Source of the DNA: Paraburkholderia sp. FT54
Lineage (GTDB): Bacteria; Pseudomonadota; Gammaproteobacteria; Burkholderiales; Burkholderiaceae
Reading direction: 5' to 3'
DNA: 64,000 bases
Assembly (NCBI RefSeq): GCF_031585635.1
Contig: NZ_CP134196.1
Span: 558,001 to 622,000 of the forward strand
The notes under the pieces were generated by a model. That model saw nothing but the letters and a program-made list of their open reading frames with translations, was not told the origin of the DNA and did not search any database. This document shows, in pieces, positions 33,465 to 52,962 of this stretch (position 1 is its first letter; the number at the start of each line of letters is the position of its first letter). A program made the position numbers and the translations under genes.

Positions 33465-34223
33465 TCAATCGATCTTTGCGCGTCCCGATGTGCGGGGGCG
33501 GTTACCGGACTTACCCGAGCGTGGTTCGGTCTTGTCCGAATGTTGCGTCACCGGTTGTTTGCTGAAGACGAGTGCCTCGACCATCTGCCAATACGCCTCA
33601 ACGACGGCGGGATCGGACGCGGAAACATTGCTGGTCGCGAGCATTTCCGGGCCAAATCCTGACAGCGTCGATGTCAGGCTGATCATCAGATAGTGCAAGA
33701 GGATCGGTTCGACTCGTGGCAGAGTCTGTTCGTCCTGCGCCGCACGAATCTGCGGAATGAGCCAGTTGATCAGTGGCTTGAGTATCGTATCCGCGAGCCA
33801 CTGCAAGCGGGGACTGTATACGAGGAACTCCTGAAGCATGAAGCGATGGAACTGTGGGAAATCCACCGTGAACCGGAACAAAGCTCGATACACAAGTTTC
33901 ACCCGGTCCGTCGCCAGGTCAGGCGGAGTATCGGTCAGATAGGCGTCCCACTCGTTGCGGATGCGTTCGAACACATACTGCGCTACCGCGTGCCAGAGAT
34001 CGTCCTTGGATCGGTAATGGTATGTGATCAGCGGATGTTGCAATCCGATGCGATCCGCAATGCTGCGAATACTCGCAGCCTCAAAGCCCTTTGTGGCGAA
34101 TTCGGCAAGTGCCGCGTTCAGGATCGCGGAGCGGGTTTCCTGCGCCCGCTGCTGCTCTGCGCGCCTGAGTTCGGTTGGCCTGCTTTTGTTGCTAACGCTC
34201 TTGGTACCTGTGCTATCCGCCAT
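33465..34223 (-). CDS. TetR-family regulator (paralog 1)
   Basis: A 252-residue TetR protein. The helix-turn-helix is at about residues 35-75 (ILNAALAEFATKGFEAASIR, then DRIGLQHPLITYHYRSKDDL) and the ligand domain follows with FRFTVDFPQFHRFMLQEF. It is very similar to the second TetR gene at 45016, including the recognition helix (only Leu/Met, Tyr/Phe and the end of the helix differ), so both probably bind the same operator. It carries about 20 extra basic C-terminal residues. It faces away from the enoyl-CoA hydratase gene at 34596; a shared operator site lies between. Confidence 0.9.
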   Translation of the reverse strand: MADSTGTKSVSNKSRPTELRRAEQQRAQETRSAILNAALAEFATKGFEAASIRSIADRIGLQHPLITYHYRSKDDLWHAVAQYVFERIRNEWDAYLTDTPPDLATDRVKLVYRALFRFTVDFPQFHRFMLQEFLVYSPRLQWLADTILKPLINWLIPQIRAAQDEQTLPRVEPILLHYLMISLTSTLSGFGPEMLATSNVSASDPAVVEAYWQMVEALVFSKQPVTQHSDKTEPRSGKSGNRPRTSGRAKID

Positions 34224-34595
34224 TTCGTTTCTCGATTGGGAATGTCGTTGCTTCCGTGCTCTCGTGCCCTCCGCTTTCTGGCAGGCCGCCAGCATATGAG
34301 GGTGGCCGCATGCGCGAGCGTCCGGGAAGACAGGATTCGCAAAGGTATCACACCCTCGACACGCACCTTGACCGCCAACTGACCTCGTTGTGCACAGTCG
34401 ATCCAGCATTTCGTCAGATAAAAGTGAAGCCGCCCATGACACATGCCCGGGCGACCCGCGGTCCCATTGTGTCTAGTGTCCTTTTAAATTAACACATCGT
34501 AAAGTATAATAAAAATAAGCTGGCAGGTCCATACATTCCACCGCCGACGGCGGAACGGCATCCAATGACAGATTTGATTCACGGATCAAGGACAG
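34224..34595. other. 372-base divergent promoter region
   Basis: Between TetR paralog 1 and the first hydratase. It is AT-rich near 34480-34520 and holds a perfect TATAAT box (34505-34510) overlapped by the operator listed at 34490. No other gene is seen. Confidence 0.6.
34490..34511 (+). promoter_or_regulatory. operator site 1 of the island, over a TATAAT box
   Basis: Aligns with the other three sites through ATCGTAAAGTATA (right arm strong, left arm weak). It overlaps the TATAAT at 34505-34510, 100 bases before the hydratase start. Confidence 0.55.
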
Positions 34596-35384
34596 ATGGA
34601 AAGCAAAATTACGCTGACGTCGAGCGACGACATCGCCTTCGTGACGCTGGTGGACGAAGCACGCGCGAACTCGATCGACACGGTGTTCTGCAATGAACTG
34701 CTGGGCGCCGTCCATGATATTGAAGAGTCGTCGAAGTATCGCGTCGTGATACTTCAAGCCAGAGGGAAGATATTTTCCGCCGGCGGGGATCTTCGGCAGA
34801 TTTCCGACGGACTGAAGAGATCCGATTCCTTCCTTGACTCGCTAATTAGCGCACTGAACGCCACCATCGTGGCGATGCGGCGCTTGCCGATACCCGTGAT
34901 TGCGTGCGTTCAAGGGGCGGCAGCCGGCGCAGGCTTTTCGCTGGCAATGGCGTGCGATCTCGTGGTGGCGTCGAACGCTGCCCGTTTTGTCGTCGGCTAC
35001 GCCAAGCTGGGGACGTCTAGCGATGGCGGTTTATCTTTTCACCTGGCGCGTCGACTGGGGTCCGCGAGGGCGTTGGAGATTTTGTTGACGCGGAATTTGC
35101 TGAGTGCGGACGAGGCCAGACAGTTAGGGCTCGTTCAAAGTGTTGTCGATCCAGCTTCCTTGCAGGACGCCAGCCTGGCGCTCGCGCGAAAACTCATGGA
35201 CGTACCCGCGGCAGCGGTCAGAGAAATGAAATCGCTCGTCGGAATGGCGGCCGAGGATCACCTTGAACGCCATCTCGAAGAGGAAAAACGCGCGTTCCTG
35301 CGATGCGCGTCGACGGACGCGTTTGCCCAACGAGTCGCGCAATTCGTCACGAACTCTGACTCGCCCAGAAGCACATCGACCTGA
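34596..35384 (+). CDS. enoyl-CoA hydratase/isomerase family protein 1
   Basis: A 262-residue crotonase-fold protein. The oxyanion-hole sequence VQGAAAGAGFSLAMACDLV is intact. Where hydratases carry the first catalytic Glu (P-x-(E/D)-G-G) it has SSDGGLSF, with Asp in place of Glu, as in PaaG-type isomerases. It is the first gene of the catabolic island and would act on a CoA thioester made by the ligase at 41325. Reaction uncertain: hydration, isomerisation or C-C cleavage. Confidence 0.87.
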   Translation: MESKITLTSSDDIAFVTLVDEARANSIDTVFCNELLGAVHDIEESSKYRVVILQARGKIFSAGGDLRQISDGLKRSDSFLDSLISALNATIVAMRRLPIPVIACVQGAAAGAGFSLAMACDLVVASNAARFVVGYAKLGTSSDGGLSFHLARRLGSARALEILLTRNLLSADEARQLGLVQSVVDPASLQDASLALARKLMDVPAAAVREMKSLVGMAAEDHLERHLEEEKRAFLRCASTDAFAQRVAQFVTNSDSPRSTST

Positions 35385-35794
35385 TGTCGTAAATCTGGTC
35401 TCACGGAAGGGCTGCAAAAATCCTGAATTGATGACGCCTTTCATCTGACGCCGGTTCACCGGCGTTGACGTCGCGCACACTGCAAGTGCGAGGTCAGTTG
35501 ACCTTCCGTCATTTCGCTGCATCCACATCTCCTTTCTCAATCGGCGTTCTCGCCCAGTCGCCCCGCGCGACGTCACGATCGATTCCCGATCTGATGGGCT
35601 GCCAGATTCACCTTCCCTTTTAAGCCATTGCGGGTGTCGAACGCCCGTCCCAATTCAATCGTCAGGCGAGACATACCTGGGGATTCTCCTATCCAAATTA
35701 AACTGTACGACCGGAAAATTTAGACATATCCTTCTTTCACAAACTCTGATGTACCGGTTGGTAGCGAATTCAAAAATGACAGAGGAGGTTGGAG
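35385..35794. other. 410-base intergenic region with operator site 2
   Basis: The site at 35704-35725 is listed separately. A 33-codon minus-strand ORF with a fair ribosome site (35573-35674) is noted but has no recognisable family. The region is otherwise empty. Confidence 0.5.
35704..35725 (+). promoter_or_regulatory. operator site 2 of the island, upstream of porin
   Basis: TGTACGACCGGAAAATTTAG aligns to the sites at 38497 and 49202 in 14-16 of 22 positions. It lies 91 bases before the porin start. Confidence 0.55.
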
Positions 35795-36895
35795 ATGAAG
35801 AGACTGTCCTGGGCAGCGGCGCTTTTGTGCGTCATGCCTGCCATGGTGTACGCGCAAAGCTCCGTAACGCTTTACGGTCTGCTGGATGAGGGCTTGACCT
35901 ACACGAGCAATCAGAACGGACACTCTGCCTGGTTGCTTCAGAGTGGAGGTGGATCACTGTCCAGATGGGGGCTGCGCGGTGCCGAAGACCTGGGTGGAGG
36001 TTACAAGGCGGTCTTCACATTGGAAAACGGCTTTGACCCATCTAGCGGAAACCTCTCGAATAATGGGCGTCTGTTCGGAAGACAGGCGTACGTCGGCGTT
36101 TCAAGCCCATACGGAACGATCACGCTCGGTCGTCAGTATGAGGAAGTGGCTGAAATGCTCTCCACCGTCGCTGCCGGGTTGAACTGGGCGGTCTACTTCG
36201 CTCATGCTGGTGACGTCGACAACGCTGGCGGCAGCATACGGATTAACAATTCGGTTAAATATGCCAGTCCGAAAATAGCGGGGTTCACATTTGGCGCGCT
36301 CTATAGTTTTGGTGGACAGCCAGGACAATTCTCCACGAATAGCGTGACATCGGTGGGATTGAGCTATACGGGAATAAGCCTTCCACTGTATGTTGCGGCT
36401 GCCTATACGGTCATCAAGAATCCGTATGCCGCCGCCTTCGATAGCGTCGCACCGCGAAACATCATTTACGCGCCGTACGTGCAGAACGCCGAAAGCGAAA
36501 CCATCGCAGGGATAGGGGCATCGTACAAGATCGGTAGCGCTTCAGTTGCCTTCGAGTACACGACGACGCGATTCAAAAAAGGCTTCCTCGGCTCTGACGT
36601 CCGGTTAGACAACTACGAGGCAAACGTCGGTTATTTCATTACGCCTTTTCTCTTCGCGGGTGCGGCGTACATCTACACGCACGGCAAAGTGGATGCGACT
36701 TCCGCGACGCCCATCTATCGGGCAATCGATCTTTACACCAACTATTTCCTCTCGAAGCGGACGGACGTCTACTTTGCGGCCGAACTGCTTAAAGCGGGCG
36801 GTTCGGCGACTCAGGCGCAGATCACGTTGATTCCTTCGCCGTCGAGCGGACAAACTCAGGGCCTGCTACGAGTTGGAATTCGTCACCGGTTTTAA
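35795..36895 (+). CDS. outer-membrane porin of the catabolic island
   Basis: A 366-residue porin. The signal peptide (1-20, cleaved after VYA) precedes QSSVTLYGLLDEGL; FGRQAYVGVSSPYGT and the terminal GIRHRF (aromatic last residue) are family landmarks. The ATG at 35795 has AGAGGAGG 10 bases upstream; TTG at 35789 is not needed. It has an operator site in its promoter, so the island probably induces its own outer-membrane channel. Confidence 0.92.
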   Translation: MKRLSWAAALLCVMPAMVYAQSSVTLYGLLDEGLTYTSNQNGHSAWLLQSGGGSLSRWGLRGAEDLGGGYKAVFTLENGFDPSSGNLSNNGRLFGRQAYVGVSSPYGTITLGRQYEEVAEMLSTVAAGLNWAVYFAHAGDVDNAGGSIRINNSVKYASPKIAGFTFGALYSFGGQPGQFSTNSVTSVGLSYTGISLPLYVAAAYTVIKNPYAAAFDSVAPRNIIYAPYVQNAESETIAGIGASYKIGSASVAFEYTTTRFKKGFLGSDVRLDNYEANVGYFITPFLFAGAAYIYTHGKVDATSATPIYRAIDLYTNYFLSKRTDVYFAAELLKAGGSATQAQITLIPSPSSGQTQGLLRVGIRHRF

Positions 36896-36980
36896 CGAAC
36901 ACGTGATGTCGATGCCGTCGAGAGACGGGTGAAACCAAATTGATACTGGACCTTGGCGGTCGATCATCAAGGAAAATGCC

Positions 36981-38384
36981 ATGGAAAACGCAGGCTATGT
37001 GAACCGGGATGTACGCAATATTTTCAACGATATGCCTATGGGCCGAAGGCAGTGGATGGTGTTCATCATCTGCTTCGCCGCTACGGCAATCGAGGGTTTC
37101 GACACGATCGTCATCAGTTTTATCGCACCTGCAATAAGCCAGCATTGGCAACTTTCCAGCATGGCGCTTTCGCCTCTGGTGGCCGTTGGATTAACCGGCT
37201 TACTGATCGGCTCGATCGTAGGAGGAACACTGGCTGACCGTGTCGGCCGCCGAACGGTGAGCATAGTGGCGATCGCCTGGTTTGGAATCGCGGGGGTGCT
37301 GTCGAGCGAAGCGCAGTCGATAGTTCAGCTTATCGGCTGGCGTTTCATCACCGGCCTCGGCATCGGAGCGGCAATGCCGGCTACGTCAGCGATCGTCGCG
37401 GAATATAGCCCCGATCGTTCCCGTTCATGGGTGCTCGCAACGACTTACTGTGGATTTCTTTTCGGTGCCGCCGCCGCCGGTTTCGTGACGTCATCGGCAA
37501 TCGGCACGTTGGGTTGGCGAGGCATGCTGGTACTGAGTGGTCTATTGCCGCTCGGGGTTGTTGTCCTGTTCGCATGGCAAGTACCGGAGTCACCGCTCTA
37601 CGTAGTGGCCAGCCGAAAGTCCAACGAGGTAGCACAACGAATCCTTGCCAAGGTATTTCCGAGCCTGGACTGCTCCCGAATGCATCTGTTCATTGCCGAA
37701 ACGCGTGAATCGATAAGCGGAAGCGGGGCGTTATTGAGCAAGCAGTACCGGCTCGGCACCATATTGACGTGGCTTACAGAATTTGCAGGCTATCTGGTGT
37801 TCTTTCTTATCGGAAGCTGGTTGCCGACGCACCTGAAACAGACGGGTTTGTCGATGCACGATGCTTCACAGGTGTCGTCAATGTTCCAGTTCGGTGCGCT
37901 TGGCGGTGCGGTCCTTTTCGCTGTCCTTGTGCGTCGTTTCAACGTGGCATCGGTCATTTCCGGGGCGTTCGGCGCAGGCTCATTGCTGGTCGTCGCTTTG
38001 GGCATGTCTGAAACCACTCAGTGGCATGTCGGCGTGGTGTTCCTGGCCGGGTTGGCAGTTGGAGGCCCGCTGATCTGTGTCAACACCATCCCCGGAATCT
38101 TCTATCCAACTGCGCTTCGCGCGTCTGGTGGTGGCTGGAACGTTGCGATCGGCCGGCTGGGTTCAATCGTAGGTTCGTCGTTGATCGGCCTGATAGTCAT
38201 GTCGGGCTTCCCTTATCTGTTCACGTGCGCGTTGTTGTCGATACCGCTCCTGATGGCTTGCGTATGCATGATCGTCATGGCGCGAGTTCTCTCCGCGCAA
38301 CGACGAATTCTGAACGAATACGCGGCGAACAACAGTGCGGTATCGGCTGTTGATTCACCGTTGCCGAACAGCACCACGCAATGA
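36981..38384 (+). CDS. MFS transporter, AAHS family (island importer)
   Basis: A 467-residue, twelve-helix AAHS transporter. It has the helix-1 signature IEGFDTIVISFIAPAI, the loop 2-3 motif LADRVGRR and the typical PESPLYV after helix 6. It presumably imports the aromatic (or acylated aromatic) acid metabolised by the island, working with the porin 86 bases upstream. Start ATG has AAGGAA at about ten bases. Confidence 0.9.
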   Translation: MENAGYVNRDVRNIFNDMPMGRRQWMVFIICFAATAIEGFDTIVISFIAPAISQHWQLSSMALSPLVAVGLTGLLIGSIVGGTLADRVGRRTVSIVAIAWFGIAGVLSSEAQSIVQLIGWRFITGLGIGAAMPATSAIVAEYSPDRSRSWVLATTYCGFLFGAAAAGFVTSSAIGTLGWRGMLVLSGLLPLGVVVLFAWQVPESPLYVVASRKSNEVAQRILAKVFPSLDCSRMHLFIAETRESISGSGALLSKQYRLGTILTWLTEFAGYLVFFLIGSWLPTHLKQTGLSMHDASQVSSMFQFGALGGAVLFAVLVRRFNVASVISGAFGAGSLLVVALGMSETTQWHVGVVFLAGLAVGGPLICVNTIPGIFYPTALRASGGGWNVAIGRLGSIVGSSLIGLIVMSGFPYLFTCALLSIPLLMACVCMIVMARVLSAQRRILNEYAANNSAVSAVDSPLPNSTTQ

Positions 38385-38488
38385 GCGTAGTGCAATAGCA
38401 AGCGAAAGTGTTTCAGACGAAGTTGAAGTTGAGTGTACGAAGAAGCGCCGTCGCCGGATTCTGACTGGCATGTAGCAGTTGGTTCGCC

Positions 38489-38517
38489 TTGCATACTTTA
38501 CGATCGTGAAGTATAGT
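38489..38517 (+). promoter_or_regulatory. sigma70 promoter of the CocE-like gene
   Basis: TTGCAT (38489-38494), 17-base spacer, TATAGT (38512-38517), with operator site 3 filling the spacer. Confidence 0.6.
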
Positions 38518-38518
38518 G
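38493..38518. promoter_or_regulatory. operator site 3 of the island, near-perfect palindrome
   Basis: ATACTTTACGA-TCGTGAAGTAT (38493-38514), a 22-bp inverted repeat with one mismatch, between -35 and -10. It is the best copy of the shared operator. Confidence 0.65.
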
Positions 38519-38652
38519 ATTTACGAAAGCTGCTCGATCGTGCGACCTTCCGAAAGAACGAACGCGAGGCGCAGGTCGAGGGTTAAGGGATAGTTTCAAA
38601 CCGAACACGGCTATCTGTTGGGGCCATACGTGCCAACGAAACAGGAGGAGAC

Positions 38653-40392
38653 ATGATTGAGGAACGCGACATTGTCGTAACGATGCGAGACGGGACTCGT
38701 CTGGCAGTAGACGTTTATCGGCCGGATGCGGATGGCAAGTATCCCGTGCTGTACGCATCGGCACTGCACAACAAGGATCTTCAAGGTCCGGACATTGCAG
38801 ATGTCCTGCCGCCGCAACCCGCGCACGCTCCGCTCTGGTTCGGACCGGTCGAGGCCGGAGACACCCGGCGCTTCGTTGCCAATGGTTATGTGCACGTTAT
38901 CGCGCAACCGCGCGGTTCCGCCAAATCGGAAGGCCACTACGGCGAGGAGAATACTGACCATTACGACATGATCGAATGGATCACGCAGCAACCGTGGTCC
39001 GACGGCAAGGTCGGCATGGTGGGCATCTCGGGATTTGCAGGCGAGCAATGGCGCGCGGCGGGGCAGGGACACCCCGCGCTCAAGGCAATCTTTCCGTACG
39101 ACGCCTGCGGTGCATACGGAGGGATGTTCGGGTTTCGGGACTTCAACCCCGGTGGTGTCATTCACACTTTCCCGTACTTGCTTGACGTATTCAGCACTGT
39201 GCACGAGCCCCGTGGTGTGCCGGGCGCATTACCCGATGCACAGGAGGAACTCTGGCGCGCAGCCATGCGCAATCCCGACTACAAGATGTATATCAACTTG
39301 TACAACATCCTGACGCAGAAGGGGCAGCGCACCGGCGTGATGTACCACATCATGACGAACCCTTGGGAGCCGGACGGAACCGTCGAGCGAGCCGAAGAAA
39401 ACTTCAAGTCGATCAAGGTGCCGTTCTATACGGGTTCCGGTGCCTATGCCTATACATACAAATTGCACTGGCTCGGCGCGCAGCACTACTTCCAGAAAGT
39501 CAAGCAGCCACGCAAGCTGATTTTTACCGGTCCGGCACATCTGGAGCGACCGTTCCACCAGTACCACGACGAGGTCATCCGCTGGTACGACTACTGGCTG
39601 AAGGGTATCGACACCGGCATCATGAACGAGCCCCCGGTTCGTTATTGGGTCATGGGCGCGAACGAATGGCGTACGGGCAGTGACTGGCCATTGCCTGAAA
39701 CGCAGTGGGCGAAGTACTACCTCGCGGGTTGGGAAGGGCTTTCGACAGAAGCTCCTCGGCCCTCGGCGGAGGTCGGCAACGCACTGCGGGAGCCTGATGT
39801 CTTTACGCAGATGCCGTTAAAAAAGACCTCCAGGGTGGAGCGCCTGCGCTACATGACTGAGCCGCTTGCGCAAGACGTGCTGGTGGCCGGTCCCATTTCG
39901 TTGACGCTCTACGCGGAAATCGACCAGACGGACACGAACTGGATTGTCGTACTCAAAGACGTGGGTCCGGATGTATCGGTCGTCACTGCGCGCGTCGGTG
40001 AACGAACGGTTCCGGACACGTTGGCGGAGCGTGAACTGACGCGCGGCTGGCTGAAAGCGTCTTATCGCGCAACCGATCCTGACCGGTCTACGCCTGCGGA
40101 ACCGTTCTACAAGCTGACGAAGGATTCGATCAGGCCGGTTACACCGGGCGAGATCGTCAAGTATGAAATCCAGATCATCGCGACGGCCAACCAGTTCAAG
40201 GCCGGCCATCGAATCTGCATCGAGATCTGCAGCCTCGACGTGCCGACTGGAACCGGCGCGATGACCGACGTCGAGTACATCCCGTATCACGTGACCAGTA
40301 GTAATACGGTCACTCACCGGGTTTACCGGGATGCCGATCGCCCCTCACATCTGCTGCTTCCATTGATCCCATTGAATAGACACGGATCCTGA
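38653..40392 (+). CDS. CocE/NonD-family hydrolase
   Basis: A 579-residue alpha/beta hydrolase of the CocE/NonD (X-Pro dipeptidyl peptidase S15) family. The nucleophile elbow is VGISGFAG (Ser126); the C-terminal half is the jelly-roll beta domain of the family (RYMTEPLAQDVLVAGPISLT). Members hydrolyse esters and glutaryl or acyl-ester bonds such as cocaine's benzoyl ester. In this island it may hydrolyse an aromatic ester or lactone before CoA activation. The ribosome site is AGGAGGAG. Confidence 0.88.
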   Translation: MIEERDIVVTMRDGTRLAVDVYRPDADGKYPVLYASALHNKDLQGPDIADVLPPQPAHAPLWFGPVEAGDTRRFVANGYVHVIAQPRGSAKSEGHYGEENTDHYDMIEWITQQPWSDGKVGMVGISGFAGEQWRAAGQGHPALKAIFPYDACGAYGGMFGFRDFNPGGVIHTFPYLLDVFSTVHEPRGVPGALPDAQEELWRAAMRNPDYKMYINLYNILTQKGQRTGVMYHIMTNPWEPDGTVERAEENFKSIKVPFYTGSGAYAYTYKLHWLGAQHYFQKVKQPRKLIFTGPAHLERPFHQYHDEVIRWYDYWLKGIDTGIMNEPPVRYWVMGANEWRTGSDWPLPETQWAKYYLAGWEGLSTEAPRPSAEVGNALREPDVFTQMPLKKTSRVERLRYMTEPLAQDVLVAGPISLTLYAEIDQTDTNWIVVLKDVGPDVSVVTARVGERTVPDTLAERELTRGWLKASYRATDPDRSTPAEPFYKLTKDSIRPVTPGEIVKYEIQIIATANQFKAGHRICIEICSLDVPTGTGAMTDVEYIPYHVTSSNTVTHRVYRDADRPSHLLLPLIPLNRHGS

Positions 40393-40456: not shown

Positions 40457-41245
40457 ATGAAAAGTATCCGTTTTGAGCGCGATGGAAAGGTTGGGAACAT
40501 CGTTCTGGCAAATCCCCCTTACAACCGGCTCGATGCACGGTTTGCACAGTGTCTCCGGGAGGCCGTTCACGAAGCTAGCGAAAGCGACATCCGGGTGCTG
40601 GTCGTCCGGGCTGAGGGGCCGCACTTCAGTCTCGGTGGAGAGGTCCGTGAATGGCCAGGCAAAGACCTGAACTGGTTTCGCACATTCGTTGCGGAAGTCA
40701 ACAGTTCGTATCGCGCAATCGAAGCGCTCCGCGTCCCGACGGTGGCGGTGGTACAGGGCCTGGCTCTCGGCGGCGGGTTCGAACTCGCGTTGAACTGTGA
40801 CTTCATTGTGACTAGCACCGACGCGGTGTTTCGATGTGTCGAAGTGACGACGGCGATGCTTCCCATTGCGGGAGCGCTTCAGCGGCTGGCTGAGCGAGTG
40901 GGGCGTAGTCGCGCATCGCGCTTTGCCATGCTGGGCGAGCCGATTCTGGGTAGCCAGGCCGTGGAACTCGGCATAGCCACGCACGTTGCCGAACCGGGTG
41001 AACTCGATCGCGTCGCCGCGGAACTGGTCGCGCGACTTGCGGACGGTCCCACGCTTTCTTATGCGGCGACGCGCACCTTGCTCAAGACGTGGTCAGGCGG
41101 TGGTGTAGCGAGTGCCGACGTTGCAATGCTGGATGTGTGCATGGACTTGTACACCACGGAAGACGCTACGCGGGGTTTTACCAACACGGCCGAAGCGTTC
41201 GACCGTGACGAGGAGCCTGGCGAAATGGCCTTTTACGGCAAATAG
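40457..41245 (+). CDS. enoyl-CoA hydratase/isomerase family protein 2
   Basis: A 262-residue crotonase-fold protein. The oxyanion hole is intact (VQGLALGGGFELALNCDFI), but both catalytic carboxylate positions look altered: the loop reads TTAMLPIAGALQRLAERVG where hydratases have a P-(G/E)-(A/G)-G-G-T-Q-R pattern with a Glu. It may therefore perform another crotonase reaction, for example a retro-Claisen or hydratase/lyase type cleavage. It follows the CocE-like gene by 64 bases and precedes the CoA ligase, so they are likely one operon. Confidence 0.85.
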   Translation: MKSIRFERDGKVGNIVLANPPYNRLDARFAQCLREAVHEASESDIRVLVVRAEGPHFSLGGEVREWPGKDLNWFRTFVAEVNSSYRAIEALRVPTVAVVQGLALGGGFELALNCDFIVTSTDAVFRCVEVTTAMLPIAGALQRLAERVGRSRASRFAMLGEPILGSQAVELGIATHVAEPGELDRVAAELVARLADGPTLSYAATRTLLKTWSGGGVASADVAMLDVCMDLYTTEDATRGFTNTAEAFDRDEEPGEMAFYGK

Positions 41246-41324
41246 CCTGACGCTCCTCAACGCTACATAGCCGGTTCGACTGACTTTTTGGCAGAAACGC
41301 GCAGCAACGATGGAGGATGGTTTC

Positions 41325-43061
41325 ATGCACACTTTACCCGGTTCCCTTGCGCTCGATGCGCCCGCCGATGGCATTGCCTACGTACGGGGCGCGACGGACG
41401 TTCCGTTGAGCGAATCCACGGTCGGCCAGTTTCTAAGGGAAACCGCACGCCGGATGCCCGATCAGCAAGCCGTGGTATTCCGTGAGCAACTCGTACGGTG
41501 GACATGGAGGGAATTTGACGACCATGTTGACCAGCTCGCCGCAGGTTTCCTGTCGCTGGGAATAGAAAAAGGGGATCGGGTTGGCATCTGGTCTCCCAAC
41601 CGGTTCGAATGGCTGCTCACGCAGTTCGCGACGGCTCGCATCGGCGCGGTGTTGGTCAACATCAACCCCGCTTTTCGTGTGGCGGAACTCGAGTACGCGC
41701 TACGGAAAGTGGCATGTAAAGCGATTGTCACTGCCGAGAGCTTTAAAACCTCGAACTACATTTCGATGCTGATCGACATAGTGCCCGAGCTTACTTCACA
41801 GCAGCCGGGCGAGGTGAGGGCGGCACGTCTGCCGGACCTTCGTACGGTGATTTCCATGGGGGATTGGCGCATACCGGGCGTCATGTCATTTCACTCGGTC
41901 ATGCAGCGCGGAGAGGCGACGCTTCGAGACAAAGGGCGCGAGGCAATTGAAAGCGTCGAGCAGACACTTTCTGCCCATGACCCGATCAATATCCAGTTCA
42001 CGAGCGGCACCACCGGCAGCCCGAAGGGCGCAACGCTGACACACCGGAACATTGTGAACAACGGGCGTTTCGTGGCGATGGGGATGAAGCTGTCCGACAC
42101 CGACTCACTCTGCATTCCTGTCCCGCTGTACCACTGTTTCGGCATGGTGATCGGCGTACTTGCGTGCGTGTCGGTAGGCGCGAAGATGGTCTTCCCGGGC
42201 GAAGGCTTCGACGCAGGTGCGACCCTCGCGGCCGTCTCGGAAGAGCGTTGCACCGCGCTTCACGGTGTGCCGACCATGTTCATTGCCGAGCTGGGACACC
42301 CGGACTTTTCGTCGTTCGACCTGAGTAGTCTCAGGACCGGCATCATGGCGGGCTCGCCTTGTCCTATCGAGACAATGAATGAGGTGGTGGCCAGAATGCA
42401 CATGCAGGAGGTCACCATTGCGTATGGAATGACAGAGACCAGTCCCGTGTCGTTTCAAAGCGCAACCACGGATCCACTAGATAGGCGCACAACAACGGTC
42501 GGCCGGATTCAGCCTCATCTCGAGGTGAAGATCGTTGACTTTGAGGGCAAGACGGTATCTGTCGGTGAGACGGGAGAACTCTGTACACGAGGATACTCGG
42601 TCATGCAGGGGTACTGGGACGACGAGGCGAAAACGCGCGAAAGCATCGTCGACGGATGGATGCATACGGGCGATCTTGCAACCATCGACGCCGACGGATA
42701 CTGCAATATCGTCGGAAGGTTGAAGGACATGGTGATTCGTGGCGGCGAGAACATCTATCCCCGCGAAATCGAGGAATTCCTCTTCAGACATCCAAAAATA
42801 CAAAACGTACAGGTATTCGGCGTGCCGGATGAGAAGAACGGCGAGGAATTGTGCGCCTGGATCGTGCTTCGAAAAGGTGAAGGTACGACTGAGGAAGACA
42901 TCAGAGACTTTTGCCGAGGGCAGATCGCTTACTACAAGGTGCCGAAATATATTCGCTTCGTGAGTGAATTGCCGATGACGGTTACGGGAAAGGTACAGAA
43001 ATTCGCAATGCGTGCCGAGATGATCAACTATCTTAAGCTGGCTGAACACAAAACCGCCTGA
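41325..43061 (+). CDS. acyl-CoA ligase (AMP-forming)
   Basis: A 578-residue ANL-superfamily ligase. The AMP-binding loop [17 protein letters not shown] is at about residue 226, with [22 protein letters not shown] and the C-terminal catalytic-lysine region [14 protein letters not shown], all in the usual places. The ATG at 41325 has GGAGG eight bases upstream, better than the ATG at 41310. It would activate an aromatic or fatty acid to its CoA thioester for the two crotonase-fold proteins. Closest by feel to FadD3/4-coumarate-type ligases; the acid is unknown. Confidence 0.9.
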
Positions 43062-43178: not shown

Positions 43179-44933
43179 ATGTATGAAATAACCACAGATG
43201 TACTCATCGTCGGAACGGGGCCGGCCGGATCAGCGTGTGCCGCGCTGCTTTCGACGTACGGTATCGACAACATGGTGGTCAACCAGTATCGTTGGCTGGC
43301 CAACACGCCTCGAGCGCACATCACAAACTTGCGCACTATGGAGGTCCTTCGCGACCTCGGTCAACAAGTGGAGCAGGAGGCTTACCTGCACGCGACCGAT
43401 CAGGATCTGATGGGCGGGACGGTTTTCTGCGAAAGTCTGACGGGTGAAGAGATCGGCCGGGTGCCGAGTTGGGGACTGCATCCGCTCTCGAGAGCGGAAC
43501 GCCAATTGTCGAGTCCGGCAAAGATGAACGACTTGCCGCAGACGTTCATGGAACCGTTGCTTTTCAAGACGGCTTGCGCGCGAGGTACTGAGGCACGGAT
43601 GAGCACGGAATATGTGAATCATACGCAGACTGACGAGGGTGTTCTGACGCGTTGCCGTGATCGGTTGTCGGGGGAAGAGTTCACGGTCAAATCAAGGTAC
43701 CTTATCGGCGCAGACGGAGGGAATTCCAAGGTCGCAAAGGATCTGGGCCTGCCTTTCGAAGGGCAGATGGGCGTGCGCGGGTCGATGAACATCTGGTTCC
43801 GCGCGGATTTGTCTGAATTCGTTGCACACCGCCCGGCAGTGTTGTACCCAATCATGCAGCCCGGCGCAGAGGTAGGCGGTATTGGCATGGGCCTGATCCG
43901 GATGGTTCGGCCTTGGAACGAGTGGTTGATTGTCTGGGGCTATGACATCAATGAGCCTGCCCCTGTCGTGGACAAGGAGAAGGCCACAACGATCGCACGC
44001 CAACTGGTGGGCAAGCCGGATCTCGAGATCGAACTGTTGGGTGCGAATACCTGGACAGTCAACAACATGTACGCCACTCGCATGCATGATGGAAGAGTGT
44101 TTTGCATGGGCGACGCGGCCCACCGGCACCCGCCGTCTGGTGGGTTGGGCTCCAACACTTCGATTCAGGACGCGTTCAACCTGGCGTGGAAGCTCGCGTC
44201 AGTCATCAAGGGGTACGCCGGCGAAGCGCTTCTGGACACCTATTCGGATGAGCGCGCGCCGATCGCCAAGCAGATCGTCACCCGTGCAAACCAATCGATC
44301 GCAGAATTCGCCCCGCTCTATAGCGCGCTTGGCATTGACAAATCCAACGACGCGGAAGTCTTGCAAGCGAACATGCATGCTCGAAGCGGAACCACCGAGG
44401 CCGCGGAAAAACAGCGGGCCGCAATTCGGGAGGCGTTGGCGTTCAAGCGATACGAACTGGACGCCCATGGCGTGGAGATGAATCAACGATATCAATCGAG
44501 CGCCGCATTGACGGATGGGCAGGCGGAGCCAGCGTTCGCGCGTGACCGTGAATTGTATTACCAGGCGACGACATGGCCTGGCGCACGCCTGCCGCATGCC
44601 TGGGTTTTCGATTCCCGTGGACGGCCACACTCCACACTTGACCTCGCCGGACATGGGCGATTCGTGTTGTTCACCGGCCTCGGTGGTGAAGCATGGGTTG
44701 AAGCTGCCGCACGAGTCGGCGAGGAACTCGGGTTGAAGCTTGACGTACACGTTATCGGTCCGCGGCAGGCGTACGCGGATCATACTGGCGACTGGGCTCG
44801 CGTGCGCGAAATCGGCGACAGCGGTTGCGTATTGACCCGTCCGGACCATCATGTGGCGTGGCGTAGTCTCGCCTTGCCGAGTGATCCGGCCGCCGAGCTT
44901 CGTCGTGTATTGCAGCATGTGCTTTCGAAATAA
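43179..44933 (+). CDS. FAD-dependent phenol hydroxylase, TfdB family
   Basis: A 584-residue group A flavoprotein monooxygenase. It has the GTGPAGSACAALL dinucleotide fold at 11-26, PRAHITNLRTMEVLRDLG, YLIGADGGNSKV (DG motif) and GDAAHRHPPSGGLGSNTSI (FAD ribityl motif, about residue 310). The match in order and spacing to 2,4-dichlorophenol 6-monooxygenase is close. With hydroxyquinol dioxygenase in the same island it may hydroxylate a resorcinol-type phenol to hydroxyquinol. The ribosome site is GGAGG. Confidence 0.88.
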   Translation: MYEITTDVLIVGTGPAGSACAALLSTYGIDNMVVNQYRWLANTPRAHITNLRTMEVLRDLGQQVEQEAYLHATDQDLMGGTVFCESLTGEEIGRVPSWGLHPLSRAERQLSSPAKMNDLPQTFMEPLLFKTACARGTEARMSTEYVNHTQTDEGVLTRCRDRLSGEEFTVKSRYLIGADGGNSKVAKDLGLPFEGQMGVRGSMNIWFRADLSEFVAHRPAVLYPIMQPGAEVGGIGMGLIRMVRPWNEWLIVWGYDINEPAPVVDKEKATTIARQLVGKPDLEIELLGANTWTVNNMYATRMHDGRVFCMGDAAHRHPPSGGLGSNTSIQDAFNLAWKLASVIKGYAGEALLDTYSDERAPIAKQIVTRANQSIAEFAPLYSALGIDKSNDAEVLQANMHARSGTTEAAEKQRAAIREALAFKRYELDAHGVEMNQRYQSSAALTDGQAEPAFARDRELYYQATTWPGARLPHAWVFDSRGRPHSTLDLAGHGRFVLFTGLGGEAWVEAAARVGEELGLKLDVHVIGPRQAYADHTGDWARVREIGDSGCVLTRPDHHVAWRSLALPSDPAAELRRVLQHVLSK

Positions 44934-45015
44934 TGTCTGAAGGCAAGCGTCTTGCCCGCACTCGCGTGATTACGCTTTCAACGGCGAGACGCTTACACAA
45001 TTCGAGCTTGGTTAG

Positions 45016-45705
45016 TTATCGGCTGGAGCGTCGCAATGTTCCAAACACGACTCGTTCTACAGTGCACCAATACTCCTCGACCAGCACCGGATCAGACGGC
45101 GATAGATTACTGGTCGCCGAAAATTCCGGCCCGAAGCCTGACAGCGTCGACGTCAGGCTGATCATCATGTAGTGGAAAACAATAGGCTCCACGTTGGGTA
45201 CGGCATGTTCCGTTTGGGCAGCGCGGATTTGCGGCAGCAGCCAACCGATCAGCGGCTTTAAGATAGAGTCCGCGAGCCATTGCAACCGCGCGCTGTGACC
45301 TAGCGACTCCTGAAGGATGAAGCGGTGAAACTCTGGAAAGTTTACCGTGAAGCGAAACAGCGCCCTATATGCCAGCTTGAGTCGGTCGGTTGCACTAGCC
45401 GGACCGAAGCTGGACAGACTCGCATCATGTTCCTGCCGGACACGTTCGAATACATACTCAGCTACCGCCTGCCACAGAATCTCTTTGGAGCGAAAGTGAT
45501 AGGTAATGAGCGGATGCTGCATCCCGATCCGGTCTGCAATGCTACGAATACTCGCGGCCTCAAAACCTTTTGATGAGAATTCGGCGAGAGCCGCATTTAG
45601 AATGGCCGAACGGGTTTCCTGCGCACGCTGCTGTTCAGAACGCCTCAGTTCCGCGGGTCGACGTGGCCCGATATTTCCTGTGTCAGGTGGTGTTAGTGAT
45701 GCCAT
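45016..45705 (-). CDS. TetR-family regulator (paralog 2)
   Basis: A 229-residue TetR protein and a close relative of the one at 33465: nearly every residue in the DNA-binding helices and much of the ligand-binding half are shared (ELRRSEQQRAQETRSAILNA, IGMQHPLITYHFRSKEIL, FRFTVNFPEFHRFILQES). The start at 45705 is preferred by alignment with paralog 1; no strong ribosome site is seen. It lies between the monooxygenase and the maleylacetate reductase, both ends of the island being marked by a TetR copy. A recent duplication seems likely. Confidence 0.9.
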   Translation of the reverse strand: MASLTPPDTGNIGPRRPAELRRSEQQRAQETRSAILNAALAEFSSKGFEAASIRSIADRIGMQHPLITYHFRSKEILWQAVAEYVFERVRQEHDASLSSFGPASATDRLKLAYRALFRFTVNFPEFHRFILQESLGHSARLQWLADSILKPLIGWLLPQIRAAQTEHAVPNVEPIVFHYMMISLTSTLSGFGPEFSATSNLSPSDPVLVEEYWCTVERVVFGTLRRSSR

Positions 45706-45877
45706 GTACGAATGCGTTGCGGCACGTTGAAATGAACGTCTGCCAATCACACTAGTAGGCGATCTGCCAACTTCAATGCGAGGGTCGACTCCATGACTGT
45801 CGATTGTGTCGAGCTTGCGTCATATAGGTGCGAATATTTTGCTGCCGCTTGTTTTTCGACATCTGAGCGAGGCGGCC

Positions 45878-46951
45878 CTACAACCCATCGTTCGGCGCGC
45901 TACCGTCAAATGCCCGCTGCAGCAACGCTCGAATTGCTCCGCGTTCCAGTGGACGGGGATTCCAGTAGGCGTTGTTGCACGCGGTGTCGGCGGCCTGGTC
46001 GAGTTGTTCCTCCAGCAGGCCAATCTCTTTCAGCGCGACGGGCGCACCGTTTGCGCGCGCGAGTTCGTATAGACCCTGTGCGGCGTTGTCATGCCCGAGC
46101 GCCCGCGCAATACGTTGCATCGCATCGGGCACAGCGTTGGCGTTGTACGCCAACGCGTGTGGAAGCACAATGGTATGAGTGGGCGCGTGCGGCAGATTGA
46201 AACTGCCGCCGAGCGTATGGCATAGCTTATGGTGCAAAGCCATACCGACGCTTCCGAGCACTGCACCGCAGAGCCAGGCGCCATAGAGTGCATCGGCGCG
46301 TGCGGCCGGGTCGTTGGGCTGTGCGACGATTCGAGGCAAACTGCGCGCTAGCGCCGCGATGCCCTCTTCGGCCATCAGGCTGGTAAGAGGATTGGCATCA
46401 CGTGAATACAGGCCTTCTGCAGCATGTGCAATTGCATTGATGCCGCTCGTTACCGACATCCCTGCCGGCAAGGTCAGTGTCAGGTCTGGATCGTAGACTA
46501 CCGTTTTCGGCAGCACGCGTAAATCAGTACCTGTTCGCTTCAGGCCCGATTCGGTCAACCCGAATATGGGCGTCATCTCACTGCCGGCATAGGTTGTCGG
46601 CACGGCGAGAATCGGCAGGTTCGTCTCAAGGGCGAGGCCCTTCGCGAGGCCGATTGCGGAGCCGCCGCCCACGGCGATGATACAGTCGGCATTCAACGAC
46701 GCGGCAACCGTGCGTACTTCAGCGACCAGCTCAACCGGCACGTGCATGGCAGCGCGATCGAAGATGCCCGCTGCGCGCGCACCTAACTGATCGGCCACCG
46801 ATACACCCAATGTGCGCTGCTCCTGACTACACAGCACCAGAGCACGTTGAACCTGCAGCGTGTGCAATTCACGTTCGATATGGGCGCGCGAGCCGGCCCC
46901 AAAGACGACACGTGTGCCGCGTCCGTTATAGACGAATTCAGATGCTGACAT
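45878..46951 (-). CDS. maleylacetate reductase
   Basis: A 357-residue iron-type alcohol dehydrogenase fold. The NADH-binding GGGSAIGLAKGLAL and the segment AVPTTYAGSEMTPIFG are diagnostic of maleylacetate reductase (the family lacks the metal of true iron ADHs). HHKLCHTLGGSFNLPHAPTH follows the helical domain. It reduces maleylacetate to 3-oxoadipate, the last step before the central beta-ketoadipate route. It is the last gene of a minus-strand operon with the dioxygenase and amidohydrolase. Confidence 0.9.
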   Translation of the reverse strand: MSASEFVYNGRGTRVVFGAGSRAHIERELHTLQVQRALVLCSQEQRTLGVSVADQLGARAAGIFDRAAMHVPVELVAEVRTVAASLNADCIIAVGGGSAIGLAKGLALETNLPILAVPTTYAGSEMTPIFGLTESGLKRTGTDLRVLPKTVVYDPDLTLTLPAGMSVTSGINAIAHAAEGLYSRDANPLTSLMAEEGIAALARSLPRIVAQPNDPAARADALYGAWLCGAVLGSVGMALHHKLCHTLGGSFNLPHAPTHTIVLPHALAYNANAVPDAMQRIARALGHDNAAQGLYELARANGAPVALKEIGLLEEQLDQAADTACNNAYWNPRPLERGAIRALLQRAFDGSAPNDGL

Positions 46952-47158
46952 GGCGGATCCCGGCGAGTCGATGCTGGAGCGGTACATTGCATGGCCAACC
47001 GGCTAGCGGCAAATCATTGCGCTGGCGTCGCGGCTGAAGATGCGGCGCACGGAAAATTGCGCTAATTCTCGCCGCGGATATGGGTCTCATAGATAAACTG
47101 GCGGTCACTTCGTCAGCGTGCCCGTTCTTTGGCGCTCGCTGTATATCGACGCGCACGT

Positions 47159-48043
47159 TCATGACCCGTGCTCCGATGGGTTGAGAACGAAGTCATAGTC
47201 GAGCGTATAGAACGGAGTATCCATGGCAGTACCATCCGGCGCGATACCCGGCGGATGTTGGACCCAGTCAACGATCAAGGTTGAGCGCACGCCGAATACG
47301 GCATCCGAGTCGAGGTACTTGTCCCCGTTGCGGAATACGTGTGTGATCAAGGGTTCGTAGCCTGACGCCTTGATCCAGAAGTGCAAGTGGGCTGGGCGCC
47401 ACGGGTGGCGTCCGAGCGCATCGAGCATGCGACCGACGGGGCCATCGTGTGGGATCGGATAGGCTTCGGCGAGAATCGAACGGAAATGAAAGGCTCCGTC
47501 CGGCAGCGTCTGCAAACGACCACGGGCTTGATACTCCACATGGGTATCCTGAGGATCCCCGTACTGCACATCGTAGTATCCGTCTTCATCGGATTGCCAG
47601 ACCTCGATCGACGCCCCGGCTACGGGTTCTCCCGAAAGACCCCGAACGCTGCCGGTAACAAAGCAGGGAAGGCCTGCCGCGCCGTTGGAGATATCGTCAC
47701 CGTTACTGTATTCGGGGGCGCCGGTAACAAAGAAGGGGCCAAGAACAGTTGCTTCCGTGCATTCGACTGGTTTGCGGTTGTTCTGGGTGGTAACCAGCAT
47801 CGACAAGCCGAGCGTATCCGACAGAAGTACAAACTCCTGGCGTTTTTCGTCAGTGATGTGGCCAACCTCAGTGAGGAAGTCGACTGCGTAGCGCCATTCG
47901 CTTTCGGTCAACTTGACCTCTCGGGCGAACGAATGCAAATGCTGGACAAGGCTGGTCATCACAGTGCGCAGCCTCTCGTGGGTACAACCGGCCATCGCCT
48001 CCAGCACCGCTTGAGTGATGGTGTCTTCGTTGATATTGCGCAT
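47159..48043 (-). CDS. hydroxyquinol 1,2-dioxygenase
   Basis: A 294-residue intradiol dioxygenase. An N-terminal helical linker domain (TITQAVLEAMAGCTHERLRT) precedes the catalytic beta sandwich with the Fe(III) ligands of the family: Tyr in DEDGYYDVQY, Tyr in AEAYPIPHDGPVG, and the HLH pair in RPAHLHFWIKA. EATVLGPFFV is typical of the hydroxyquinol/chlorocatechol group. It opens hydroxyquinol (benzene-1,2,4-triol) to maleylacetate, the substrate of the neighbouring reductase. The ATG at 48043 has AAGGGA upstream. Confidence 0.93.
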   Translation of the reverse strand: MRNINEDTITQAVLEAMAGCTHERLRTVMTSLVQHLHSFAREVKLTESEWRYAVDFLTEVGHITDEKRQEFVLLSDTLGLSMLVTTQNNRKPVECTEATVLGPFFVTGAPEYSNGDDISNGAAGLPCFVTGSVRGLSGEPVAGASIEVWQSDEDGYYDVQYGDPQDTHVEYQARGRLQTLPDGAFHFRSILAEAYPIPHDGPVGRMLDALGRHPWRPAHLHFWIKASGYEPLITHVFRNGDKYLDSDAVFGVRSTLIVDWVQHPPGIAPDGTAMDTPFYTLDYDFVLNPSEHGS

Positions 48044-48199
48044 TGTCTTCCCTTGCACTCCGCATTTCCGACCCCACCGGTTAGATGGGAGCCTTGCCGT
48101 CCAGCGCCGAGCCGCTTACATCCTCACTGTCCCTGCACGCCCAAAGAGCGTTTTCATCTGTTGCCCGGCAAAGCAGGGAGCCGCCGATTGCCTGTACCG

Positions 48200-49123
48200 T
48201 CAGCGCGCAAGCAAGCGGGCAGCATTTTCCCCATACACCTTGTCCATCTCGATGCCGGGAATCTGGATGTCGTCGAGCACCTTGCCGAATTGTCGAATTG
48301 CGCTTGTCGGTGCGAACGGGAAGTCCGTTCCGAAGAGAATGTGATCGGGGTCTGCCACGTGCGCCAGCGCACTGAGGGGCGCATAGCCGCCGGCGAGTGC
48401 CGTGTCGAAGTAGAAGGACCTAACCGCCGCCAACGTGTCACCCACGCGCTCGGCCACCTCGGGCATCATGGAAATCGAAAGAGCGATGCGAGGTACGAGA
48501 AACGGCAACGTCCCCCCGGCATGCGAAAGGATGAAGCGAATGTTCCTGAAACGGCTCATTGCACCCGACATGATCAAGCTCGTGGCTGTACGGGTCGTTT
48601 CGAACGGATACTCGATCACGGACGCCGGCGCCACCGGCGGCGCTTCGTGAGGCGGCTGGTTAGGGTGAATGAAAACCACGCTCCCGCGCCGGTCCAGTTC
48701 TTCCCACAGCGGCGTGAAATGGTCGTCTCCCAGATACAGCCCGTTGTAGTTCGTAAAGGCAATGAAACCATCTACCTTCAAATCGTCAAAACAATAGCGG
48801 ACTTCCTTCAGTGCTGCGTCGACGTCCGGCAGCGGCAGGCTCGCGAAGGAGCCGAACCGTCCGGTATGCCGGGACCTGAGCTCCGCTGCGTGGTCGTTGC
48901 ATTTTCTCAGCAGCGTGGCCGCATCCGGCAGTCTGGGACCGGAAGAAATCGACAGAATACCCTCGTCGATTCCGTTTTCATCCATCATCGCGATGGCTGC
49001 CTCGACGGACCAGGTCGGGGCCTTGCCGCCCGGCATCGCCGCATTTAGCAGATCCAGTCCAACTGCGTCCACGTAAAGCTTCGGCAGAAAATGCTGGTGT
49101 GTATCAATTTTTCGCTTGGACAT
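48200..49123 (-). CDS. amidohydrolase-type metal enzyme, probable aromatic acid decarboxylase
   Basis: A 307-residue TIM-barrel amidohydrolase of the ACMSD/gamma-resorcylate decarboxylase group. The metal-binding elements are visible: IDTHQHFLP (His9, His11), VFIHPNQPP, ILSHAGGTLPFL and the catalytic Asp in FGTDFPF. Members remove CO2 from dihydroxybenzoates, or open 2-amino-3-carboxymuconate semialdehyde. As first gene of the minus-strand operon with hydroxyquinol dioxygenase, a dihydroxybenzoate (for example a resorcylate) decarboxylase is the likely role. An operator site lies about 80 bases upstream. Confidence 0.82.
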   Translation of the reverse strand: MSKRKIDTHQHFLPKLYVDAVGLDLLNAAMPGGKAPTWSVEAAIAMMDENGIDEGILSISSGPRLPDAATLLRKCNDHAAELRSRHTGRFGSFASLPLPDVDAALKEVRYCFDDLKVDGFIAFTNYNGLYLGDDHFTPLWEELDRRGSVVFIHPNQPPHEAPPVAPASVIEYPFETTRTATSLIMSGAMSRFRNIRFILSHAGGTLPFLVPRIALSISMMPEVAERVGDTLAAVRSFYFDTALAGGYAPLSALAHVADPDHILFGTDFPFAPTSAIRQFGKVLDDIQIPGIEMDKVYGENAARLLAR

Positions 49124-52960: not shown

Positions 52961-52962
52961 TC

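Follow-up and report, generated by a model that had tools for sequence, protein, structure and literature searches.

Gene content and organization of the locus

The window analysed here is a stretch of 64,000 nucleotides of Paraburkholderia sp. FT54 DNA (NZ_CP134196.1, positions 558,001 to 622,000) on the second contig of an 8.65-Mb genome. Between positions 33465 and 49123, it contains a putative catabolic gene cluster for a resorcinol-type aromatic compound, and the nearest named relatives of this locus are from Paraburkholderia. Profile searches confirmed that the genes listed in an earlier sequence-only reading, which had proposed a catabolic island funnelling to hydroxyquinol, are open frames and belong to the families assigned to them (Table 1).

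The genes form two convergent sets. The plus-strand set encodes, in this order, the crotonase-fold protein ECH1, a porin, an MFS importer, a CocE/NonD-family hydrolase (CocE), the crotonase ECH2, an acyl-CoA ligase and an FAD monooxygenase; the minus-strand set encodes an amidohydrolase, a hydroxyquinol 1,2-dioxygenase (HQDO), a maleylacetate reductase (MAR) and the regulator TetR2. The gene for a second regulator, TetR1, is divergent from ECH1. TetR1 and TetR2, already described as closely related, are 75% identical over 207 amino acids.

Table 1. Genes and putative operators of the cluster; positions are those of the window.
Feature	Position	Strand	Evidence
TetR1	33465..34442	-	TetR_N 46.9 bits; listed frame probably over-long, true start probably near 34226 (MADS...)
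Putative operator, TetR1/ECH1 intergenic	34486..34507		15/22; fourth best position in the window
ECH1, crotonase fold	34596..35384	+	ECH_1 169 bits; oxepin-CoA hydrolase (alt.) 201 bits, under cut-off of 300
Putative operator before porin	35700..35721		16/22 to symmetric near-palindrome
Porin	35789..36895	+	Porin_4 163 bits
Aromatic acid/H+ symporter family MFS importer	36981..38384	+	TIGR00895 297 bits, PcaK 280 bits, both under cut-offs
Putative operator before CocE	38493..38514		ATACTTTACGATCGTGAAGTAT; 21/22 to symmetric form; best site, source of consensus
CocE/NonD-family hydrolase	38653..40392	+	TIGR00976 250 bits, cut-off 66; cassette core
ECH2, crotonase	40457..41245	+	ECH_1 106 bits; cassette core
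Acyl-CoA ligase (PRK12583 group)	41310..43061	+	880 bits, cut-off 832
Group A FAD monooxygenase	43179..44933	+	2-hydroxybiphenyl 3-monooxygenase (HbpA) 594 bits, 2,4-dichlorophenol 6-monooxygenase (TfdB) 467 bits
TetR2	45016..45750	-	TetR_N 48.2 bits; last gene of minus operon
MAR, Fe-ADH family	45878..46987	-	PDB: unnamed Fe-ADH 466 bits, then maleylacetate reductases 3w5s 378 and 3hl0 365 bits
HQDO, intradiol	47159..48058	-	1tmx 297 bits, best PDB match
Amidohydro_2 protein (amidohydrolase)	48200..49123	-	PF04909 117 bits
Putative operator before minus operon (amidohydrolase)	49198..49219		17/22; second best position in the window

We compared the locus with the best 80 of at least 592 confirmed stretches with a relative of the monooxygenase, which comprise 20 Burkholderiaceae and 60 alphaproteobacterial loci, some of them cut by contig ends; individual loci and genomes are referred to by L and G numbers. 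Within the stretches examined, the 20 Burkholderiaceae loci contain CocE and ECH2 (18 loci), HQDO (16), TetR (16), the ligase (15), the amidohydrolase (15), the MFS importer (15), MAR (13) and ECH1 (12), the last being an optional member of the cluster. CocE is not found nearby in L019 and L026, the stretch of the latter beginning 190 bases before the monooxygenase. Because its members recur across the 20 Burkholderiaceae loci in this search of other genomes, which the sequence-only reading had proposed, we conclude that the gene set is not a chance assembly.

Nine of these 20 loci additionally contain an HMG-CoA-lyase-like gene (463 bits to the HMG-CoA lyase model, cut-off 246). A ligase paralogue that is 75-76% identical is present elsewhere in the genome of Paraburkholderia sp. 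FT54. The possibility that the ligase and the HMG-CoA-lyase-like gene were derived from a leucine operon was set aside; the ligase paralogue is isolated, and a 67% identical paralogue of the lyase lies elsewhere. For the proposed activation of the acid with CoA, the ligase is present in the window cluster, but none was detected in five of the 20 Burkholderiaceae stretches.

A common putative operator precedes both gene sets

When the window was scanned with a symmetric 22-bp near-palindrome derived from the CocE site, 15 or more of the 22 bases matched at four positions, and all four are located at the four promoters of the cluster. First-order Markov versions of the window contained a mean of 0.44 such positions, with three or more in 2 of 200; among sequences of the local intergenic composition (1518 bases), 43 of 2000 runs gave at least one such position and no run gave three. 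Moreover, a degenerate pattern with at most three mismatches matched five places in the entire genome, three of which are in the cluster, and the reversed control matched none; the site at ECH1 is not among these genome-wide matches. The two extra places, one inside a 635-amino-acid frame (C2:770988) and one on contig 4, were rejected as further promoters that carry the operator, and searches around them with the cluster queries gave no match except a 28% identical one to an alkene-reductase query.

The site is also conserved. Among the relatives examined, it was detected upstream of ECH1 in 11 of 11 (14-17/22, at varying distance), before the porin in 12 of 12 (15-17/22), before CocE in 18 of 18, and before the amidohydrolase in 9 of 15 (14-17/22); in the other six, the amidohydrolase gene lies inside the plus operon or elsewhere. 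Because a common operator precedes both operons, the two strands are best understood as one regulon, in agreement with their earlier description as one functional unit. As far as sequence allows, this common site speaks against the refuting case named in the sequence-only reading, in which the genes on the two strands would not respond to the same compound.

TetR1 is 72-74% identical to the TetR proteins that accompany CocE in L141 and L142, and its identity to the six relatives compared ranges from 55 to 75%. Because a TetR relative is found in 39 of the 42 loci that contain CocE together with ECH2, we infer that TetR1 and TetR2 probably control the regulon via the 22-bp site.

CocE and ECH2 are the core of a putative portable cassette

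Among 398 genomes of the family, 17 encode the monooxygenase (at least 84% identity) and 19 encode CocE, and all 17 with the monooxygenase also have CocE. G013 and G342 have CocE without a monooxygenase at this limit, and in G347 and G375 the monooxygenase is on another contig than CocE. In total, 1851 of 7995 scored candidates were relatives of CocE at E <= 1e-60. At stricter or different limits, CocE was detected in a single one of 369 genomes of the class (that of Paraburkholderia sp. FT54), in 2 of 397 genomes of the order around G769 and in 18 of 213 genomes of the genus around G986, which is probably Bradyrhizobium because of its likeness to a named plasmid of Bradyrhizobium sp. CB82.

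In a survey of 48 loci, 46 of them with CocE, the 300 bases preceding CocE were scored for the operator and the highest value was taken. All 42 loci with CocE and ECH2 had a score of 20-34 bits. Of these, 19 are not independent because the motif was built from the upstream regions of the window and L008-L027; the other 23 (L118, L119, L140-L142, L145, L169, L174-L189) played no part in building it. The operator was found in none of the three CocE loci without ECH2 (L170, L190, L191), for which the scores were -6 to -11. L143, which has no operator site, was counted in neither group, as its CocE runs into the contig end and ECH2 cannot be judged. The cassette is accompanied by the ligase in many loci, and by ECH1 and the HMG-CoA-lyase-like gene in some. 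In total, TetR, the operator, CocE and ECH2 look like a portable entry cassette that is present in Burkholderiaceae and in a Bradyrhizobium-like group.

ECH2 has both hydratase-type Glu residues (6 of 6 aligned sequences), and ECH1 has the crotonase fold and neither crotonase Glu (5 of 5 aligned ECH1 sequences). In CocE, Ser126 and His296 are present, and Ala266 occupies the presumed position of the cocaine-esterase Asp; none of the 14 aligned sequences has an Asp at this position (Ala in 13, Gly in one), which was placed manually as the phmmer alignment skips the region. The proposal that CocE cuts an ester or lactone is therefore tentative, as the protein seems to be without the canonical triad Asp. 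For the same reason, and far more speculatively, CocE may instead be a C-C hydrolase or an acyl transferase that works with the crotonase.

Several further features of CocE loci were observed. The CocE proteins of L170, L190 and L191 are 69-76% identical and have neither ECH2, TetR nor operator beside them; those of L170 and L190 are second copies in cassette-bearing genomes. The CocE frame is broken by one stop in L129 (G213) and in G1192. Upstream of the Bradyrhizobium-like cassettes L119, L180, L185 and L186, genes for an alpha/beta hydrolase, a further crotonase, a LysR regulator, a pirin and a DoxX protein recur, and the DoxX gene of Bradyrhizobium-like loci often lies on the far side of the operator from CocE, in divergent orientation.

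The monooxygenase, HQDO and MAR form a self-contained lower pathway

The monooxygenase had been described as TfdB-type; it is an FAD monooxygenase that by score is nearer to HbpA than to TfdB. HQDO scored under the cut-offs of the chlorocatechol and catechol models. Thus, a hydroxyquinol-type intradiol dioxygenase and a maleylacetate reductase, the two enzymes of the hydroxyquinol lower pathway, are both present.

In the 60 alphaproteobacterial loci, the monooxygenase relatives are 69-73% identical to that of the window. HQDO was found in 53 of these loci, MAR in 53, both in 50 and at least one of them in 56, and a recurrent gene order is LysR, MAR, a branched-chain-type ABC importer, monooxygenase, HQDO. 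No CocE, ligase or amidohydrolase (each at least 50% identity) and no ECH2 or gamma-resorcylate decarboxylase (gamma-RDC; both at least 60%) was detected in the stretches examined. Because these loci carry the monooxygenase, HQDO and MAR without the entry genes, the three constitute a self-contained module. We firmly predict that this module converts a dihydroxybenzene to 3-oxoadipate and is the lower half of the route; resorcinol would be its most plausible substrate, with hydroquinone as a possible alternative. From the gene company, the monooxygenase would accept resorcinol and form hydroxyquinol. Together with the PDB relatives of the enzymes, this co-occurrence supports the funnel toward hydroxyquinol that was originally suggested.

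The amidohydrolase is a candidate dihydroxybenzoate decarboxylase

In the PDB, the amidohydrolase matches gamma-RDC (2dvt) with 64 bits, less than it matches 5-carboxyvanillate decarboxylase (84 bits), ACMSD (77 bits) and a metal-dependent hydrolase without a specific name (125 bits). The assignment to an ACMSD/resorcylate-decarboxylase-like family was therefore correct for the family, with gamma-RDC as the weaker match of the two. The residues that we take to be the metal site (His, His, His, Asp), the catalytic His and the substrate Arg of this family align with ACMSD 4ign; the N-terminal His pair aligns in a weak separate segment with 4ign and clearly with 2f6k. A search of this genome with the gamma-RDC relative of L142 (E <= 1e-10) gave no orthologue, its sole match being the window amidohydrolase (30% identical). 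The conserved metal-site residues and Arg are consistent with the amidohydrolase being a dihydroxybenzoate decarboxylase.

The cassette is combined with different putative routes to hydroxyquinol

The cassette is found with three sets of partners. In route a, represented by the window, it is combined with the amidohydrolase, the monooxygenase, HQDO and MAR. In route b, the cassette or the cluster occurs with a gamma-RDC relative (L008, L009, L023, L027, L140, L142, L143, L186), which is mostly accompanied by an MFS importer (both are present in L023); the gamma-RDC relative of L143 matches 2dvt with 416 bits, compared to 293 bits for 2,3-dihydroxybenzoate decarboxylase and 218 bits for salicylate decarboxylase. 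In route c, which is Bradyrhizobium-like, HQDO lies between the ligase (or MAR) and TetR in L181, L182, L187 and L188 (4 of the 16 loci L174-L189). This version of HQDO is approximately 44% identical to that of the window; in L187, in which MAR is present, it is split over two overlapping frames.

A salicylate-hydroxylase-like monooxygenase is present in 6 of the same 16 loci (L175, L181, L183, L185, L187, L188). Its gene is located between the ligase and TetR, inside the CocE operon, in L175, L183 and L185; an operator (26 bits) precedes it in L187 and L188 and not in L181 (2 of 4 scanned with the Burkholderiaceae-trained motif). Its best PDB matches are tropone 2-monooxygenase (224 bits), 6-hydroxynicotinate 3-monooxygenase (203 bits), decarboxylative vanillate 1-hydroxylase (199 bits) and salicylate hydroxylase (186 bits).

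As a separate observation, in a relative that carries CocE, a second MAR (57% identical to that of the window) and an apparent glyoxalase-fold dioxygenase of the hydroquinone type are encoded upstream of the gamma-RDC and aldehyde dehydrogenase genes (L157:13563-14666, L143:63-1019).

Common to all three routes would be a hydroxylated benzoate that is converted either to a phenol or, without this intermediate, to hydroxyquinol. 2,4-dihydroxybenzoate can be decarboxylated to resorcinol and then hydroxylated to hydroxyquinol, or it can be converted directly to hydroxyquinol by a salicylate-type oxidative decarboxylation; 2,6-dihydroxybenzoate suits the gamma-RDC of route b and not the salicylate-type enzyme of route c. 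Because 2,4-dihydroxybenzoate fits both route a and route c, we favour it as the node, and CocE, ECH2 and the ligase would most likely deliver this compound or its aldehyde. Thus, the dihydroxybenzoate step of the sequence-only reading gains support from relatives in which the cassette occurs with a gamma-RDC relative, or with a salicylate-hydroxylase-like enzyme and HQDO.

A proposed pathway and its alternatives

We consider it probable that the cluster is one TetR-controlled catabolic regulon for the degradation of a resorcinol-type aromatic compound via dihydroxybenzoate and hydroxyquinol. An aromatic acid, or its ester or lactone, would enter via the porin and the MFS importer. CocE, ECH2 and the acyl-CoA ligase would remove or shorten a side group to yield a dihydroxybenzoate, most likely the 2,4-isomer, and ECH1 and, in some relatives, the HMG-CoA-lyase-like enzyme may assist in this removal. 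The amidohydrolase would decarboxylate the dihydroxybenzoate to resorcinol, the HbpA-like monooxygenase would add the third hydroxyl group to give hydroxyquinol, HQDO would open the ring to maleylacetate, and MAR would convert the latter to 3-oxoadipate. TetR1 and TetR2 would act on the one near-palindromic operator at the four promoters and be released by the compound or its CoA ester.

Several observations weigh against this proposal. The amidohydrolase is 26% identical to the gamma-RDC relative and is not in the stretch examined of 5 of the 20 Burkholderiaceae loci, CocE seems to be without a complete canonical triad, and L019 has the monooxygenase, the amidohydrolase and the ligase with no CocE or ECH2 adjacent. 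Similarly, L141 has the cassette, HQDO and MAR with neither monooxygenase nor amidohydrolase in 17 kb ending at the contig end, and in 8 of the 16 loci L174-L189 the 20 kb examined contain neither HQDO or MAR nor a salicylate-type enzyme or gamma-RDC. The salicylate-hydroxylase-like enzyme scores slightly higher with the NCBIfam model for 3-hydroxybenzoate 6-monooxygenase (232 bits) than with that for salicylate 1-monooxygenase (230 bits), both far under cut-off. Finally, no TetR was found in the vicinity of CocE for three of the 42 loci (L023, where the stretch end cuts, L025 and L140).

A possible but less probable alternative is a pathway of the coumarin or hydroxycinnamate type, in which CocE opens umbelliferone or an umbellic acid ester, the ligase forms the CoA ester, 2,4-dihydroxybenzaldehyde is released from it by ECH2 (together with the HMG-CoA-lyase-like enzyme in loci that have one), and an aldehyde enzyme oxidizes the aldehyde to 2,4-dihydroxybenzoate. 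The combination of ligase, crotonase, porin and MFS importer resembles hydroxycinnamate clusters, and the HMG-CoA-lyase-like gene of nine Burkholderiaceae loci would find a place in this scheme. Moreover, some loci have an aldehyde dehydrogenase (L008, L009, L027, L142, L143) or a molybdenum hydroxylase (L119, L140, L185, L186, L187) with the cassette or the cluster. In L142, the genes for gamma-RDC and the aldehyde dehydrogenase come after the cassette and are read in its direction; in L143, both are directly ahead of CocE; and in L187, the operator separates CocE from divergently oriented molybdenum hydroxylase genes. However, gamma-RDC, the aldehyde dehydrogenase and the MFS importer adjoin the cluster in L008, L009 and L027 without an operator of their own, none was found before the molybdenum hydroxylase of L119, L140, L185 and L186, and aldehyde oxidation by the latter enzyme is a guess, all its models being under cut-off. 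ECH2 has two hydratase-type Glu residues and not the Ser in the first and Glu in the second crotonase position that are the signature of hydroxycinnamoyl-CoA hydratase-lyase (HCHL/Ech). The window cluster contains no aldehyde gene, and none was recognized at the operator places of this genome (tblastn with two aldehyde dehydrogenase queries at the two extra places). For an umbelliferone-like start, the sequence-only reading had called for an aldehyde dehydrogenase outside the cluster; support for this is mixed, coming from some relatives but not from the operator places of this genome. Finally, Pseudomonas mandelii 7HK4 degrades umbelliferone with a different set of genes, as far as its route is set out in the available portion of PMC7913881.

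Beta-oxidative shortening without an aldehyde appears unlikely. Here, the ligase and ECH2 would start on a 2,4-dihydroxyphenyl-propanoid, housekeeping dehydrogenase and thiolase would complete the cycle, and CocE would free 2,4-dihydroxybenzoate from its CoA ester. This would account for a hydratase-like ECH2 and for there being no aldehyde gene under the operators of the window, but the cluster includes no dehydrogenase or thiolase, the ligase is not near CocE and ECH2 in several loci, and we know of no thioesterase in the CocE family.

We are equally doubtful that the side part is aliphatic, with CocE splitting a resorcinol or resorcylate ester of a short branched acid, and the ligase, ECH1, ECH2 and the HMG-CoA-lyase-like enzyme burning the acid. 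The best model of the ligase is a fatty-acid ligase group, its 76% identical paralogue is not part of a cluster of this kind but is close to a frame read as atpG, and the extra gene of relatives scores well above the cut-off of the HMG-CoA lyase model; however, that gene is absent from the window cluster and from 11 of the 20 stretches examined, and no natural ester of this sort was identified.

That a resorcinol lower pathway and an unrelated CocE/ECH2/ligase pathway are simply neighbours is improbable: the modules do occur apart, as none of the 60 alphaproteobacterial stretches has CocE or ECH2 and 21 of the 42 CocE+ECH2 loci are without a monooxygenase of this type, but the same operator precedes both operons, all 17 genomes with the monooxygenase have CocE compared to 19 of 398 overall, and the cassette meets HQDO again in another class.

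In the proposed regulon, a single operator links entry enzymes of unassigned reaction to known hydroxyquinol genes in two bacterial classes; therefore, the substrate should be traceable via the TetR ligand, and its identification would assign a function to a widespread, uncharacterized group of CocE proteins. Resorcinol-type rings are frequent in plant root exudates, and umbelliferone or umbellic acid is one candidate for the starting compound. More speculatively, and with little confidence, we suggest that the cassette is a transferable two-enzyme entry device of undescribed chemistry for plant resorcinol-type compounds, i.e. coumarins or the resorcinol ring from C-ring fission of 5-deoxyflavonoids, that has been plugged into at least three routes to hydroxyquinol. 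If so, the cassette would supply some of the genes still missing for the degradation of coumarins, or of flavonoids by the C-ring route, in the rhizosphere.

Genes adjacent to the cluster

Beside the cluster, the plus strand (49601-55254) encodes a TRAP solute-binding protein, an SMP-30/gluconolactonase-like protein, an AtuA-domain protein and a TRAP large permease. These genes were set aside as cluster members; DctP, SGL and AtuA were found by tblastn in 0 of the 80 relatives' stretches. On the other side, a single frame (32302-33339) combines a MarR-type regulator part with a GNAT acetyltransferase part, 30715-32211 encodes a berberine-bridge-type FAD oxidase, and 27720-29927 is a CoA-transferase frame like FadX (under cut-off) with an N-terminal overhang.

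Comparison with known systems

Gamma-resorcylate and resorcinol are reportedly degraded by the gra pathway of Rhizobium MTP-10005 and the tsd pathway of Rhodococcus jostii RHA1. Like the window, for which the first two activities are predicted, the gra and tsd loci combine a decarboxylase, a resorcinol hydroxylase, HQDO and MAR. They differ in that the decarboxylase candidate of the window is distant from gamma-RDC (64 bits), that CocE, two crotonases, the ligase and the TetR/operator system are extra, and that 2,4- rather than 2,6-dihydroxybenzoate is suspected as the intermediate. Among proteins of solved structure, HbpA is closest to the monooxygenase (594 bits); however, the hbp system is associated with extradiol enzymes, unlike the window, in which the monooxygenase occurs with the intradiol HQDO. 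The hydroxycinnamate clusters (hca/fcs-ech) similarly comprise an importer, a porin, an esterase-like protein, a CoA ligase and a crotonase; by contrast, the window cluster has no aldehyde dehydrogenase, its crotonase is hydratase-like, and its pathway would end in hydroxyquinol and not in protocatechuate.

The sequence-only reading knew of no described cluster with this set. Likewise, among the matches listed for open-access titles and abstracts on hydroxyquinol and resorcylate clusters, HbpA, Paraburkholderia, and coumarin and flavonoid routes, none describes it, and a search for CocE with hydroxyquinol gave no match; this is weak evidence of novelty.

The 7-hydroxycoumarin pathway hcd of P. 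mandelii 7HK4 is alike in its dihydroxyphenyl-propanoid substrate class, in having a hydroxylase and in acting on a plant compound. In the available portion of PMC7913881, its genes are described as encoding an alcohol-dehydrogenase-type coumarin reductase, a hydroxylase, a trihydroxyphenylpropionate dioxygenase and a hydrolase, and this description, unlike the window, mentions neither a CoA ligase or crotonase nor a step via hydroxyquinol. Conversely, the 12 genes of the cluster include no alcohol-dehydrogenase-type reductase besides MAR and no second dioxygenase. The isoflavone cluster ifc of Variovorax V35 shares with the window a rhizosphere bacterium as host, a resorcinol-type A-ring and an FAD monooxygenase; it differs in that the A-ring is opened after 8-hydroxylation, according to the part of PMC11069340 available. 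The same part of this 2024 paper states that, until its own report, no genes were known by which soil microorganisms catabolize isoflavones, and cites an older C-ring route in rhizobia that yields resorcinol and p-coumaric acid. In total, the parts of the cluster are known and its lower pathway is textbook; the entry cassette, whose chemistry may be new, the operator and their re-use in two classes are not described among the open-access matches listed.

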